From Desulfobacteraceae bacterium CG2_30_51_40 (GTDB taxonomy: Bacteria > Desulfobacterota > DSM-4660 > Desulfatiglandales > Desulfatiglandaceae), in contig MNYJ01000138.1 of the NCBI GenBank assembly GCA_001874005.1, forward strand, positions 1 through 64,000: 64,000 nt of DNA, given 5' to 3'. Of the stretch, positions 17,380 to 24,738 are shown in pieces. Position 1 is the first letter of the stretch. Each line of letters opens with the position of its first letter. The position numbers and the translations under genes are program-made. The notes under the pieces are model-generated. The model was not told the DNA's origin. It ran no database searches and saw nothing but the letters and a program-made list of their open reading frames with translations.

Positions 17380-17464
17380 CTGGATTCCGGCATTCGCCGG
17401 AATGACGAACAACTGGATTCCGGCTCCCGGATCGCGGTCCGGGACAGGCTTCGCCGGAATGACG
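17380..17464. repeat. CATTCCGG-type repeat pair, right of GIY-YIG gene
   Basis: Two inverted-repeat units lie back to back: CTGGATTCCGGCATTCGCCGG with AATGACGAAC, then CTGGATTCCGGCTCCCGGATC with its arm GCTTCGCCGGAATGACG. The repeat starts directly at the stop codon region of the GIY-YIG frame. Confidence 0.75.
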
Positions 17465-17572
17465 AACAAAGGGAAGAGTCATCTGAAAGACTGAAAGTAC
17501 GCAAAAACCGGATGACCCGGATGTTTATTACCGGATCGGCCTTTCGGCTATGAACGTGGAATTATTTAACGA

Positions 17573-17635: not shown

Positions 17636-18088
17636 CTAGTTCCAGCAGGGCCTGTTTCCAGCGGGACCCCTCCCTGAACCGCCGAAAAACCTTCCCTGGT
17701 TCGGGGCGATCTCCTTGCTGCTCAACCTGAATGAAAGCCTCTTTTGCTCCATCTCGGCCCTCAGGGCGCTCAGCTCGTTCTGGAGGGCGCTAGCCTTCGC
17801 CGGATCAGGATTTTCTGATCCTAAGAGGGCGTCTAACTCTCTAGTCTTGCTCCAGATGCTGTTTCTCAATGCATAGGTGTCGTTTTCAAACTTCTGCTCA
17901 AGGCTATCCAGCTTTACTTCCTGGTCAGGGCTTAGCTCGACTCCATAACCTCCCCCGTTTCTCCAGCAAGAACCTGGGCCGCCGCCATTGCCGCCAAACC
18001 ATCCTCTACCGGGCCCCCAAGCCATCACAGGGACCGCAACTGCCGCTACCAATAAGACAATTACCACTACGCTTCCTATCTTCTTCAT
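17636..18088 (-). CDS. ZraP/CpxP-like periplasmic metal-response protein
   Basis: A 150-residue exported protein. Residues 1-24 form a signal peptide (MKKIGSVVVIVLLVAAVAVP, cut after VMA). A Gly/Trp-rich segment follows, then a long helical region (LSPDQEVKLDSLEQKF...ALRAEMEQKR) as in the Spy/CpxP/ZraP chaperone fold, and a Gly-rich tail ending NRPCWN. ZraP binds zinc and restrains the ZraSR response in enterobacteria; here it is divergent from a ZraS/ZraR pair, which supports that role. I chose ATG 18088 (GGAGGTGG ribosome site) over the track start 15 codons upstream. A sigma-54 promoter lies about 110 bases before the start. Confidence 0.8.
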   Translation of the reverse strand: MKKIGSVVVIVLLVAAVAVPVMAWGPGRGWFGGNGGGPGSCWRNGGGYGVELSPDQEVKLDSLEQKFENDTYALRNSIWSKTRELDALLGSENPDPAKASALQNELSALRAEMEQKRLSFRLSSKEIAPNQGRFFGGSGRGPAGNRPCWN

Positions 18089-18206
18089 CTTACCACCTCC
18101 GTTATTAGTTTCATTTTTGCCGCTAGAGTCCAATCATTTAAACCTGAGTTATTTCCGGCAATGAATCAAGGTCACTCATGAACGGCTCCCTTTGGTTCTA
18201 TAGCTA

Positions 18207-18222
18207 AGCAATTGGTGTGCCG
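18207..18222 (-). promoter_or_regulatory. Sigma-54 promoter of the ZraP-like gene
   Basis: Read on the minus strand, CGGCACACCAATTGCT matches the -24/-12 consensus TGGCACR-N4-TTGCW except for the first base, with the exact GG-N10-GC spacing. Transcription would start near 18196, about 110 bases before the ATG. Confidence 0.75.
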
Positions 18223-18315
18223 AAATTCATATAGATTATAACATATTGTAATAATATCATAATTGGCATTACATGTAAGTGTAAAGAATTTCATCTCGCT
18301 TCGGAAGCTCATGTT

Positions 18316-18374
18316 GGATAAAAAGTATCCACTTTTAGGACGCCCTGTGGTGTATACATGGATAATAAGTATCC
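18316..18374. promoter_or_regulatory. Two palindromic upstream activator sites
   Basis: GGATAAAAAGTATCC (18316-18330) and GGATAATAAGTATCC (18360-18374) are two GGATA-N5-TATCC palindromes, 44 bases centre to centre (about four helical turns). They lie about 95-150 bases upstream of the sigma-54 promoter, the usual place for an NtrC-class activator. The ZraR-like protein at 20.3 kb is the obvious candidate to bind them. Confidence 0.65.
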
Positions 18375-18439
18375 AGGCTCGTCGAAATCCTATAGTATGG
18401 TAAAAGGTTAGGGCCTCTTATGAACAGGGTAAACGGCCT

Positions 18440-18458
18440 TGAGGTATCCTTTTTGCTT
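18440..18458 (+). promoter_or_regulatory. Weak sigma-54-like site before the sensor kinase
   Basis: GG at 18443-18444 and GC at 18455-18456 have the exact 10-base spacing and a TTTTTGCTT -12 region, but the -24 half (AGGTAT) is poor. If real, the ZraSR-like pair would autoregulate through the shared activator sites. Confidence 0.3.
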
Positions 18459-18570: not shown

Positions 18571-20322
18571 TTGAGAGAAGAAAGAAAATTTCCTTCGTGG
18601 GTGGCCATTCCGCCCTGGCTGGTGGTTGGTGCACTTCTGATCTTGGTTCCCATACTGGGTTTCCTGACCCTGGATACCATAAACCGTCAGAGGACTAATA
18701 CCATCAAGCTCATGGAGGAGAAGGGAGAAGCCCTTGTTAGATCACTTGAGGCGGGGGCCAGGACAGGAATGATGGGCATGTGGGGGGGAGCATATCAGGT
18801 TCAGAGGCTTATTACTGAGACAGCGCGGCTTCCTGATATAGTTCATATAATTGTAGTAGATGAAAAGGGGATTGTCACAGCGCACAGCGATCCATCCATG
18901 ATAGGAAAGAGGTATGGAGGGGATCTGGACGCGGCAAGGATAACAAAATCTGCTGTGATTGAGTGGAGGGAGGTCCCTGGCGGGGCTGAAGGAACTATCT
19001 TTGAGGTCTTCAGGAGGTTTGCGCCCTCCGCCTCCGGCTATGGCCGGATGATGGGTAGAGACCCTCAGCAAGGCTGGCAGAGTTCGTGGATGGAGAGAAA
19101 TGGAAATCTACCAAGCGCCATATTCGTAGGCCTTGACATGGGGCCGCTGCTTGAAGGCGAGAAGGAAGATAGGGCTCATACGGTGGTAATGGGCGCCGGG
19201 CTTCTCCTGCTCGGACTGGCGGGGATGGTATCGGTGTTTCTGGCCCAGGCCTACAAGGGTGCTCGAAGCTCACTGGCCAGAGTGGAGACGCTTTCAAACG
19301 CGATAGTATCAAATATGCCCATAGGCCTTGTGGCAGTGGACAAGAATTCAAGGATCGCGCTCATAAACGATACGGCGGCAGCCATACTTGCGATAAATCA
19401 GAGGGATGTGATCGGTACCTCATTAAAGGAGTCCCTCCCGCGGGTATTTTTTGAGAGCCTTTCCGCTCTGGCTCATGAAAAAACATTTGAAAAAGAAGAG
19501 TTGTGTGAACTTAAGGACGGTAGATCAATCCCCCTTGATGTTATAGCTGCCGTCCTTGCCGGAAGCGATGATGAGTCCCAGGGCCTTTTGTTTTTGTTCA
19601 AGGACATGAGCGAAATGCATCGTCTTAAAGATGAGGTTGAAAGAAACAAACGCCTCGCATCAATAGGCATGCTTGCGGCCGGGGTTGCACACGAAATAAG
19701 AAATCCCTTAAGTTCGATAAAGGGCTTTGCTACCTACTTTAAGGAAAGATACGGGGATTCGGCGGAGGATAAGGAGATCTCCGAGGTCATGATAGAGGAG
19801 GTGGAAAGACTGAACCGCGTTGTCGGACAGCTACTCGAGTTTGCAAGGCCAATGGAGATAAGAAGAACCGTAGCAGGCATCTCAGCTCTGATTAATCATA
19901 CGGTCAGGCTGGTTGAGCAGGACGCGGCCCAGAGAGGCGTCGAGATAAGGACAAGGCTGCCCGCGGAAGAAATCTTTCTTGAACTCGATGAGGACAAAAT
20001 GAAGCAGGTGCTTATCAATATTCTCATCAACGCGTTGGATGCGACGGATAAAGGCGATGTAATCACGGTAGAGGTCGCAAGGAGCAGGCCTGGTGAATCC
20101 CTCAGCCTGATGATATCGGATACTGGGAGGGGTATAAAGAAAGACGATCTTCACCATATATTCGATCCATATTTTACGACCAAGCAGTCCGGCACCGGGC
20201 TCGGCCTCGCACTGGTGCATAAGATTGTCAAGGCCCATGGAGGTGATGTGGTCATAAGTTCCACCCCGGAACTCGGAACAGAGGTGAAGATAATTATCCC
20301 GGCAAATATGGGGGGCCTATGA
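18571..20322 (+). CDS. Membrane sensor histidine kinase, ZraS-like
   Basis: It has an N-terminal membrane segment (about residues 10-35), a periplasmic sensor of about 170 residues, a second membrane segment (about 208-235), a PAS-like domain (about 245-350), a HisKA domain with the phosphorylated histidine in VAHEIRNPLSS, and a HATPase domain with N box INALDAT, DTGRGI and GTGLGLALVHKI. The start is TTG 18571 with GAGGAGAG upstream. Its stop overlaps the response-regulator start (ATGA). The ZraP-like neighbour and the copper genes downstream point to metal or envelope-stress sensing; the ligand is inferred. Confidence 0.88.
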   Translation: MREERKFPSWVAIPPWLVVGALLILVPILGFLTLDTINRQRTNTIKLMEEKGEALVRSLEAGARTGMMGMWGGAYQVQRLITETARLPDIVHIIVVDEKGIVTAHSDPSMIGKRYGGDLDAARITKSAVIEWREVPGGAEGTIFEVFRRFAPSASGYGRMMGRDPQQGWQSSWMERNGNLPSAIFVGLDMGPLLEGEKEDRAHTVVMGAGLLLLGLAGMVSVFLAQAYKGARSSLARVETLSNAIVSNMPIGLVAVDKNSRIALINDTAAAILAINQRDVIGTSLKESLPRVFFESLSALAHEKTFEKEELCELKDGRSIPLDVIAAVLAGSDDESQGLLFLFKDMSEMHRLKDEVERNKRLASIGMLAAGVAHEIRNPLSSIKGFATYFKERYGDSAEDKEISEVMIEEVERLNRVVGQLLEFARPMEIRRTVAGISALINHTVRLVEQDAAQRGVEIRTRLPAEEIFLELDEDKMKQVLINILINALDATDKGDVITVEVARSRPGESLSLMISDTGRGIKKDDLHHIFDPYFTTKQSGTGLGLALVHKIVKAHGGDVVISSTPELGTEVKIIIPANMGGL

Positions 20323-21689
20323 AAAAGGGGATAACAGTGCTGGTGGTTGACGATGACAGGAGCCACAGACTTATGCTCAAGACCCTCCTCAAGGGATGGG
20401 GATACGCTGTTACAGAGGCGGAAGACGGCTCTCAGGCCATAGAGGCCGTAAGGGAGAAGGCCTTTGACCTTATACTGATGGACATAAGGATGGTAAGGAT
20501 ATCGGGGCTTGAGGCCCTCGGCGCGATAAAGAGCTATAACCCATCCATACCCGTCATCATCATGACCGCCTACTCATCTGTTGAGACCGCCAGGCAGGCA
20601 CTGAAGAGCGGGGCCTATGATTATCTCACCAAACCCCTTGACTTTGACGAACTGAAGATAGTCATGGAAAGGGCTGCGGAGCACACGAGCCTCAAAGAGG
20701 AAAACAGAAGACTGAAGGAAGGGCTTTCAGGGGATTTCGACAGGAGAAACATAATAGGTAACAGCCCAGGAATAATTACTCTTCTCGAGCTTGTAGCCAA
20801 GGTTGCCTCCTCCGATGCCGGGGTATTGATCACCGGGGAGTCCGGATCCGGAAAGGAGCTGATAGCAGGCGCCATCCACTTCAACAGCCCAAGGAGGCAA
20901 GGCCCGTTCGTTCAGGTCAACTGCGCCGCTATCACTGAAACCCTTCTGGAGTCGGAGCTTTTCGGGCATGAAAAAGGTGCCTTTACAGGCGCCCTAAGGC
21001 AGAAGGAGGGCCGATTCCGGCAGGCCCATAGCGGGACACTTTTCCTCGATGAGGTAAGCGAGATGTCTCCGGGAATGCAGGTCAAGCTCCTCAGAGCTCT
21101 GCAGGAAAGGGAGATTACGAGGGTGGGAGGTGAGACTCCCATAAAACTGGATGTGAGGATAATCGCCGCAACTAACCGCGACCTTGAACAGGATGTTGCG
21201 GAAGGTCGCTTCAGGGAAGATCTCTTTTACAGGCTGAATGTGATAAGCCTCAGGGTGCCGCCCTTGCGGGAAAGAAGAGAGGATATACCTATCCTTGCAA
21301 GGCATTTTCTCGCCCGCTTCGCTGAAAAAAACCGGAAAGACCTTAAGGGCTTTACCCCCCAGGCCATGGATAGGCTCTTGAGATACGGCTGGCCCGGGAA
21401 TGTGAGGGAACTCATGAACGCGGTGGAACGGTCTGTAGTGCTCTCTATCTCCGGTTACGTCGAAGCGGATGATCTGCCCCGTACCTTGAGGACGGGCAAG
21501 GAGACCGCTAAGGAACCTACCGAGGCCCCGGTGCCTGAAGGTGCCTTGCCGCTTGAGGTGGTTGAAAAGGCCACCATTCTCAAGACGCTTGAGGCGGCAA
21601 ATGGAAACAAGAGCGAGACGGCAAGACGCCTGGGTATAACAAGGAAGACCCTTCATAAGAAACTAAAGGCCTACGGCGTTATGGATTAG
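20319..21689 (+). CDS. Sigma-54-dependent response regulator, ZraR-like
   Basis: An NtrC-class activator. The receiver domain (about 1-125) has DDDRSHR and the phosphoacceptor aspartate in LILMDIRM. The AAA+ domain has GESGSGKELIA (Walker A), GAFTGA (sigma-54 contact) and GTLFLDEVSEMS (Walker B). The C-terminal Fis-type helix-turn-helix is NKSETARRLGITRKTLHKKL. At 456 residues it is full length. It is translationally coupled to the kinase and probably acts at the GGATA-N5-TATCC sites at 18.3 kb. Confidence 0.93.
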   Translation: MKKGITVLVVDDDRSHRLMLKTLLKGWGYAVTEAEDGSQAIEAVREKAFDLILMDIRMVRISGLEALGAIKSYNPSIPVIIMTAYSSVETARQALKSGAYDYLTKPLDFDELKIVMERAAEHTSLKEENRRLKEGLSGDFDRRNIIGNSPGIITLLELVAKVASSDAGVLITGESGSGKELIAGAIHFNSPRRQGPFVQVNCAAITETLLESELFGHEKGAFTGALRQKEGRFRQAHSGTLFLDEVSEMSPGMQVKLLRALQEREITRVGGETPIKLDVRIIAATNRDLEQDVAEGRFREDLFYRLNVISLRVPPLRERREDIPILARHFLARFAEKNRKDLKGFTPQAMDRLLRYGWPGNVRELMNAVERSVVLSISGYVEADDLPRTLRTGKETAKEPTEAPVPEGALPLEVVEKATILKTLEAANGNKSETARRLGITRKTLHKKLKAYGVMD

Positions 21690-21889: not shown

Positions 21890-22018
21890 ATTCGGGACTT
21901 AAGCCGGAATCCAGCTATAAAAGACTGGATTCCAGCTTGCACTGGAATGACAAAGAGTTGGCTTGTTCCGTCTTCCCGGCGAAGCCTGTCCCGGACCCCG
22001 ATCCGGAATCAAGTGGTT
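21890..22018. repeat. CATTCCGG-type repeat array
   Basis: Several family units run from CATTCGGGACTTAAGCCGG through CTGGATTCCAGCTTGCACTGG and GGCGAAGCCTGTCCCGGAC to GATCCGGAATC. They occupy much of the 389-base spacer between the response regulator and copZ. Upstream in the same spacer only a weak AGCGCTT/AAGCGCT hairpin is visible, and no gene. Confidence 0.7.
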
Positions 22019-22078: not shown

Positions 22079-22282
22079 ATGGGTAAAATGACCTTTTCTA
22101 TTCCTAAGATTTCATGCCATCACTGTGTTATGACCATCAAGCGTGAACTCGGTGAACTTGAAGGAGTGCTCAGTGTTGAAGGGAATCCTGCCGGCAAGGA
22201 GATAGTGGTTGAATGGAAGGAGCCGGCAACGGTGGACAAGATAAAGGCATTGCTGAGCGAGATCAATTATCCCGCTGCGTGA
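22079..22282 (+). CDS. copZ: Heavy-metal-associated (HMA) copper chaperone-like protein
   Basis: A 67-residue single HMA domain. The metal-binding loop is [10 protein letters not shown], i.e. C-x-x-C with two histidines between the cysteines instead of the usual small residues, which could alter metal preference. A GGAGG ribosome site precedes it. It overlaps the P-type ATPase start (TGATG), so it is translationally coupled and probably delivers Cu(I) to it, as in known CopZ/CopA pairs. Confidence 0.9.
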
Positions 22283-24738
22283 TGGGGGATCGGTTGGGAA
22301 AAAAGGAGATCATAGTCCCGGTCACCGGAATGACATGTGCCAACTGCGCCATGACTATAGAGAGGACCTTAAGAAAGGTGGATGGCGTAGAAAGTGCTGT
22401 GGTCAATTTTGCCTCTGAAAAGGCCGCCATCGTCTATGATCCTGAAAAGGTAAAGCAGGAAGAGCTGGTATCCCGCATAGAGAAGGCCGGCTACGGAGTG
22501 GCTGTTGCCTCTGCGGATATCCCGGTCACCGGCATGACCTGCGCCAACTGCGCCATGACGATAGAGAGGACCCTTACGAGAAAGGTCCCTGGTGTGCTGA
22601 AGGTAGCGGTCAATTTCGCGGCTGAAACGGCCCATGTTGAATACATACCAGGTGTATCAAGCCTTCAGGATATAGCGGCCGCAATCGAAAAAGCCGGATA
22701 CGGAGCTGTGATTCCCTCTGATTCGGCGGGGGCTGAGGATCAGGAACTCCTTGCAAGGGAGGCGGAGATCCGTTCACAGACAAAGAAGTTCCTCGTGGGG
22801 GTTTTATTTGCATTTCCGCTTTTTGTCCTGAGCATGGGAAGAGACTTCGGTATTCTGGGACAATGGAGTCATGCGGCGTGGGTGAACTGGCTCTTCTTTT
22901 GCCTGGCAACCCCTGTGCAGTTCTATACCGGCCGGGATTATTATGTGGGAGGATTCAAGAGCCTAAGAAACAAATCCGCCAATATGGATGTACTTGTGGC
23001 ACTGGGGTCGTCGGTTGCATATTTTTATTCCCTTGGAGTCCTTTTTTTCCCTTCATTAGGGCATCACGTCTATTTCGAGACATCCGCCGTCATAATAACC
23101 CTTATAAAACTAGGCAAGATGCTTGAATCGCGCACAAAGGCAAAGGCGGGTATCGCCATTAGGGCCCTTATGGGATTGCAGCCGAAGACTGCCACCATCT
23201 TAAAGGATGGAGAGGAGGCCAATATTCCCATCGCCCGGATAGTGCTTGGAGATGTCGCACTCGTGCGGCCAGGTGAAAGGATACCGGTTGACGGGGTTGT
23301 GATCGAAGGGGCCTCATCCGTTGATGAATCCATGCTTACAGGGGAGCCCATGCCGGTTGAGAAAAACGCCGGATCAAAGGTTACCGGAGGCACCATAAAC
23401 GGTGAAGGTCTTTTAAGGGTGCGCGCAGAGCGTATCGGCAAAGACACCGCCCTTTCTCAGATAATCCGTCTTGTGCAGGAGGCCCAGGGGAGCAAGGCCC
23501 CTATTCAGGCCCTGGCCGACAGGGTTGCGGCCTTTTTCGTCCCGGGAGTCATCCTCTCTGCTGCAATTACCTTCATACTGTGGTGGCTACTATCCGGAGA
23601 TTCCGTTTCCGCCATGATACGCCTTGTCGCGGTGCTTGTGATAGCCTGCCCATGCGCGCTTGGCCTTGCGACTCCTACCGCCATAATGGCCGGAAGCGGA
23701 AGGGGGGCAAGAGAGGGCATCCTTTTCAAAGGGGGAGAGGCCCTTGAAGCCTCAGCCCATCTTAATGTCGTTGTTCTGGATAAGACCGGAACCATTACAG
23801 AGGGAAAACCGGTTGTGGAAAAGATCATGCCGGCTGATTCCTCCGGCCTCGACGAGGATGAAATTCTTGCCCTTGCCGCATCCGCAGAGAAGGGCTCCGA
23901 GCATCCCCTCGGAAAGGCCCTCGTGGCGGCGGCAAAGGAAAAGGGCATAGCCCTTGATGATCCTTCGGATTTCAAGGCCTACGGGGGAATGGGGATAGAG
24001 GCAAAAGTCAGGGGAAGGTTTGTCAGGGTAGGGAAACCGGCCTGGTTCCAGGCGCTCTCGATTGACCTTGAAGGGGTTAAGGAAGCCATAATTGCCCTTC
24101 AGGAGAAAAAAAAGACGGTTGCCGTTGTAGTTGCAGACGGTAGCCCCATCGGTGTAGCAGCCCTGAGTGACAGGATAAAACCTGACTCCGGACCGGCCGT
24201 ATCGCTTATCAAGAACATGGGCCTCAAGGTGGCCATGATCACCGGCGATACCAAGGAGACGGCCCTTGCTATTGCCCTTTCTGTAGGTATTGATGACGTT
24301 CTGGCTGAGGTGAGGCCTGAGGAAAAGGCTGACAGGATAAAGCAAATGAAGGCAAATGGCGCCAAAGTGGCCATGGTCGGGGACGGCATAAACGACGCAC
24401 CGGCCCTGGCGCAGGCAGACCTTGGTATCGCAATAGGCACGGGAACGGATGTGGCCATGGAGACAGGCGGGGTGATACTTGCCCGTGGTGAACTGACCGG
24501 TGTTCCCAAGGCTATATCGCTTGGAAGGGCTGTCATGCGCACCGTTAGACAAAACCTTTTCTGGGCCTTTTTCTACAACTGCATCTTGATTCCGGTAGCA
24601 GCCGGAATCCTCTTTCCATTCGAAGGGGTGCCTGCCTTTTTAAGGCAGCTCCATCCCATCCTGGCCGCTCTGGCCATGGCCGCAAGCAGCATCACGGTTA
24701 TTTCAAATTCGCTTCGGCTTCACAGGATTAAACTTTAG
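22282..24738 (+). CDS. copA: Copper-translocating P1B-type ATPase
   Basis: It exports Cu+ (or Ag+) from the cytosol using ATP. Two N-terminal HMA domains each carry [15 protein letters not shown]. The membrane core has the CPC metal site ([13 protein letters not shown]). Catalytic motifs are LTGEPMPV (actuator), DKTGTITEG (phosphorylated Asp), SEHPLGKAL (HP motif) and [13 protein letters not shown] chose ATG 22282, overlapping the copZ stop; the track start (22213) reads out-of-frame copZ sequence. The length is 818 residues. An 18-bp inverted repeat flanks the copZ-copA pair. Confidence 0.96.

Follow-up and report, generated by a model that had tools for sequence, protein, structure and literature searches.

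Paired palindromes as a predicted sigma-54 enhancer between divergent zraP- and zraS-like genes of a Desulfobacteraceae bacterium

Described systems and the zraP/zraS-like locus

NtrC-type enhancers are built from paired dimer sites that are spaced by about three helical turns and lie at least 100 bp upstream of a -24/-12 promoter. In Escherichia coli, ZraR binds the spacer between zraP and zraSR, as found by gSELEX (PMC8249747) and ChIP-exo (PMC7657598). Desulfovibrio vulgaris DVU3381, a sigma-54 response regulator annotated as envelope stress response, targets its own operon (DVU3382-DVU3381) and DVU3384 (PMC3333781, PMC4641369). Its motif was confirmed (DAP-chip and EMSA, PMC3333781; sigma-54 regulome, PMC4641369), and palindromic motifs are the rule (PMC3333781).

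The window, meaning the whole stretch of 64,000 nucleotides that was analyzed, shares with enterobacterial ZraPSR an NtrC-type regulator (56% identical) and the divergent arrangement of zraP and zraSR, which was confirmed for its zraP-like gene relative to the zraS- and zraR-like genes (Table 1). The zraP/zraSR gap of Escherichia whittamii (L154) also holds two 15-bp palindromes, GAGTAAAAATGACTC and GAGTCATTTTTACTC, which are spaced by 31 bp and are flanked on either side by a -24/-12 element. The sites of the enterobacterial system read GAGT-N7-ACTC, whereas those of the window read GGATA-N5-TATCC, and the distance from site to zraP element is 42 bp in E. whittamii compared with 93 bp in the window. 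The predicted layout is that of the enterobacterial ZraR enhancer, but its letters and distances differ. Relative to NtrC-type paired enhancers, the putative enhancer of the window is common to two divergent promoters and its spacing is one turn longer. The motif of DVU3381 is published as a figure only, so the comparison of that system with the window covered regulator type and targets. No GGATAC-type ZraR motif published for this bacterial group turned up in a literature search, and the system is well supported as a new example of an already known kind of switch.

None of the three proteins reached the NCBIfam equivalog cut-offs, and they are therefore named ZraPSR-like. The ZraS model was the best match of the kinase (406 bits; cut-off, 479), the ZraR model scored 561 bits on the regulator (cut-off, 760), slightly under AtoC at 567, and the ZraP model scored 42 bits on the zraP-like protein (cut-off, 200). 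The kinase differs from enterobacterial ZraS by an extra PAS domain. The GAFTGA motif was read in the translation of the response regulator, among whose best structure matches ZraR (1ojl) ranks, and RpoN is encoded elsewhere in the same genome. The zraP-like product matches the Pfam domain Metal_resist (E value, 7e-17), and its nearest solved structure is a zinc resistance-associated protein (3lay; E value, 7e-8). Unlike enterobacterial ZraP, it contains no His, and with it no His-based zinc ligand, and carries one Cys, followed by Trp, near each end (GSCW and PCWN); its metal ligands probably differ from those of the enterobacterial protein. In many relatives, the ZraP-like protein ends with CWN.

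A copZ-like gene (67 amino acids, with an SCHHC motif) and a gene for a copper-type P-ATPase lie downstream of the regulator gene (22079-24738), an order also found in one relative (L046). As a direct target in the window copZ-copA was rejected, since its upstream intergenic region has no palindrome-plus-sigma-54 pair. The zraP-zraSR segment is flanked by a 45-nucleotide inverted repeat pair (CCGGATCGCGGTCCGGGACAGGCTTCGCCGGAATGAC...; 17427-17471 and 21962-22006) that is 87% complementary and resembles a dispersed intergenic repeat.

Control elements in the window and their genomic background

Table 1. Features of the zraP/zraS-like locus in the window
Feature	Position	Strand	Remarks
zraP-like gene	17636..18091	minus	151 aa; signal peptide-like N terminus; Metal_resist domain
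-24/-12 element of zraP-like gene, CGGCACACCAATTGCT	18207..18222	minus	One mismatch from TGGCAC-N5-TTGCW
Palindrome 1, TGGATAAAAAGTATCCA	18315..18331		Predicted proximal enhancer site; 93 bp to zraP -24/-12 element; 15-base core GGATAAAAAGTATCC at 18316-18330
Palindrome 2, TGGATAATAAGTATCCA	18359..18375		Predicted distal enhancer site; 44 bp from palindrome 1; 15-base core GGATAATAAGTATCC at 18360-18374
Second, weaker sigma-54-like element, AGGTATCCTTTTTGCT	18442..18457	plus	Faces kinase gene; 67 bp from palindrome 2
ZraS-like sensor histidine kinase gene	18571..20322	plus	sCache_3_2, PAS, HisKA, HATPase
ZraR/AtoC-like NtrC-type response regulator gene	20319..21689	plus	Receiver, sigma-54 activation and Fis-type HTH domains; predicted binder of palindromes

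A preliminary description of this DNA had reported a near-consensus -24/-12 element before the zraP-like gene and, between the divergent genes, two GGATA-N5-TATCC palindromes 44 bases apart. Both were present exactly where they had been placed. The single mismatch of the zraP element is a C instead of T at the first position of its -24 box, and the locus has the GG and GC of a -24/-12 promoter at the standard spacing. The preliminary description had overlooked the kinase-facing element, which is weak in having GGTAT in place of GGCAC. The cores of the palindromes are 44 bp apart from start to start, and both palindromes have one further base pair of symmetry, giving TGGATA-N5-TATCCA.

Within the 3.44-Mb genome, GGATAN5TATCC occurs 8 times compared with once for a reversed-pattern control, while the looser GGRTAN5TAYCC occurs 14 times compared with 12 for its reversed pattern, and the number of palindromes in the window with one mismatch allowed falls inside the range of shuffles. 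A lone palindrome is thus no commoner than chance, and single-site counts, being at background level, were dropped as evidence; the excess over chance lies in the pairing of sites, their fixed distance to a -24/-12 element, and their conservation. A palindrome with a sigma-54 element 76 to 106 bp away was found at a single place in the genome, the zraP/zraS intergenic region. The regulon search proposed earlier therefore recovered this locus and no second target in this genome. The other six exact sites were rejected as regulon members, as they are unpaired and have no well-placed sigma-54 element, and most of them lie within reading frames.

Conservation of the paired sites and the candidate binder

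The locus of a genome of the same genus (L252), read separately from the larger sample described below, carries the palindromes TGGATAATTTGTATCCA and TGGATACATAGTATACA 43 bp apart, a zraP sigma-54 element (CGGCACAGATGTTGCT) 95 bp away, and a kinase-side element (GGTATTCATATTGCA) that aligns with AGGTATCCTTTTTGCT of the window. Identity to the window is 66% for zraP and 57% for the kinase, and the DNA between the two genes has diverged strongly, yet it retains the two sites as well as the two -24/-12 elements. Such retention within a diverged intergenic region is, as an argument for predicted function, cleaner than the shuffle figures.

The larger sample comprised 36 divergent zraP/HK-RR intergenic regions, namely orthologous loci from relatives and the window itself. 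A pair of sites with four or fewer mismatches in total was present in 33 of the 36, and the motif derived from these pairs reads T-GG(A/G)TAC-WWW-GTA(T/C)CC-A. Perfect GGRTAN5TAYCC sites were found in 29 of the 36 regions (0.05 expected; maximum of 1 in 300 shuffles), and dinucleotide shuffling of the intergenic regions produced a pair spaced at 31 to 33 bp in 0.5% of loci, although shuffle figures of this kind overstate independence because the loci share descent. Spacing was 32 bp in 23 loci, 33 bp in 8, 43 bp in one (L041), and 44 bp in the window, which is therefore unusual among relatives mostly at 32 to 33 bp; the difference between 32-33 and 43-44 bp amounts to about one helical turn. 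Distances from palindrome to zraP sigma-54 element peaked at 96 to 101 bp for the proximal site and 128 to 133 bp for the distal site, the corresponding values in the window being 93 and 137 bp. A kinase-facing sigma-54 element was present in 20 of the 33 loci, the window included (0.25 expected by chance). Two loci with GGRTA pairs (L094 and L095) had no strong sigma-54 element. A third half-site, GTATCC, lies between the palindromes and 4 bp before the distal one in 22 of the 33 loci, and is absent from that position in the window.

A motif-only search of 85 genomes of the order returned 19 pairs and 49 palindrome-plus-sigma-54 places (reversed control, 0), with the paired motif present in 17 of the 85 genomes; among 395 genomes drawn evenly from the phylum, it was found in one further family. 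The named motif-bearing relatives are MAGs that carry the labels Desulfobacterales, Syntrophaceae, and Deltaproteobacteria. In a set of 61 genomes, motif-plus-sigma-54 places were found in 23 of the 38 that have an orthologue of the regulator and in 2 of the 23 that do not (Fisher P = 5e-5). The earlier suggestion that the palindromes are a binding motif of the ZraR-like protein gains support from this co-occurrence and from the orthologous paired sites beside the same regulator. Taken together with the conserved pairing and position of the sites and with the presence of RpoN in this genome, these findings make the response regulator very likely the binder, with one enhancer serving both promoters. 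Covariation between the recognition helix and the letters of the motif was also considered and no code is claimed, as changes at one and the same helix position (to H, R, or L) coexist with unchanged sites; the loci with deviant sites (L069, L070, and L154) are those with the most diverged recognition helices.

The two genomes in which the motif lies by sigma-54 elements and no regulator orthologue was detected (one 68% complete and the other, G022, 94% complete) would fit binding of the palindromes by a different regulator, such as a MerR-, ArsR- or Fis-like protein acting on the same genes, with the response regulator bound elsewhere. This is unlikely because -24/-12 elements need an enhancer-binding protein, and the sites lie at enhancer distance from such elements. 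Moreover, motif and regulator gene occur together across genera, and the stretch from zraP to copZA in the window contains no regulator genes other than the zraSR-like pair.

Less likely still is that the regulator mainly represses a sigma-70 promoter overlapping the proximal palindrome and activates zraP through sigma-54 only as an additional role. In 23 of the 33 loci, a -35-like hexamer starting with TTG is followed, after exactly 17 bp, by a GATAAT or GATACT within the proximal palindrome, the whole being directed towards the kinase gene (binomial P of about 1e-30, shared descent being ignored). This TTG-N17-GATAMT arrangement looks like a sigma-70 promoter of the kinase operon that would be covered when the regulator binds, and in relatives (L035-L067 and others) it suggests a promoter changeover on regulator binding. 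In the window, however, the -35 hexamer is absent (TCTCGC), and a promoter of this kind inside the proximal palindrome is rejected there, so that the explanation does not apply to the window locus as such; activation, moreover, remains compatible with repression. That the palindromes are functionless products of chance, as the background frequency of lone sites in the genome might suggest, is very improbable, given that they are paired, fixed in position, and conserved in 33 of 36 loci and are retained in the diverged locus of the same genus.

Targets in relatives and the proposed switch

Most of the pairs examined sit at zraP, zraSR genes, or copper-ATPase operons. Judged from translations, 17 of the 33 readable first genes after motif-plus-sigma-54 places are zraP-like, and such places in other genomes of the order include ones ahead of additional zraP-like genes. 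Several further candidate targets in relatives set them apart from enterobacterial ZraPSR: behind a palindrome and sigma-54 element lie a copper-type ATPase with HMA domains (L237) and YHS/HMA genes ahead of a copper ATPase (L097), and other candidates encode a YHS protein (L217), an HtrA-like trypsin-domain protein (L244), an ABC ATPase (L238), a SHOCT protein (L227), and a DUF4405 protein (L219). Any single case may be due to chance; the ZraP-like and copper-ATPase cases recur. A gene for a Sir2-family deacetylase was also observed behind a palindrome and sigma-54 element in two genomes of one genus (L239 and L240).

The conserved sigma-54 enhancer predicted at the zraP/zraS-like locus is regarded as real, and we are confident that the palindromes would serve as the enhancer of the adjacent NtrC-family response regulator, driving both sigma-54 promoters. 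Binding, oligomer assembly, activation, and the metal signal are steps that we infer. One regulator dimer would bind each 15-bp site (T-GGATAC-WWW-GTATCC-A), phosphorylated dimers would assemble side by side on the paired sites, and DNA looping would allow them to drive sigma-54 polymerase at the zraP-like promoter on the left and at the weaker zraS-zraR-like promoter on the right. Envelope or metal stress would in this way raise the periplasmic effector, the sensor, and the regulator together.

Considerably more tentative is the broader proposal that the ZraR-like regulator of this order has a code of its own, the same 15-bp motif paired at three or four turns and often with a third half-site, and that a nearly single-target switch has grown into a copper/envelope-stress regulon, with a changeover from sigma-70 to sigma-54 within one palindrome in many relatives. 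The motif and its geometry are sharp and testable for a regulator of uncultured deltaproteobacterial-type bacteria. Candidate targets in relatives can be read from sequence, among them zraP-like proteins, a copper ATPase, and an HtrA-like protease, and the loci offer a natural series in which two predicted enhancer sites lie three or four helical turns apart.
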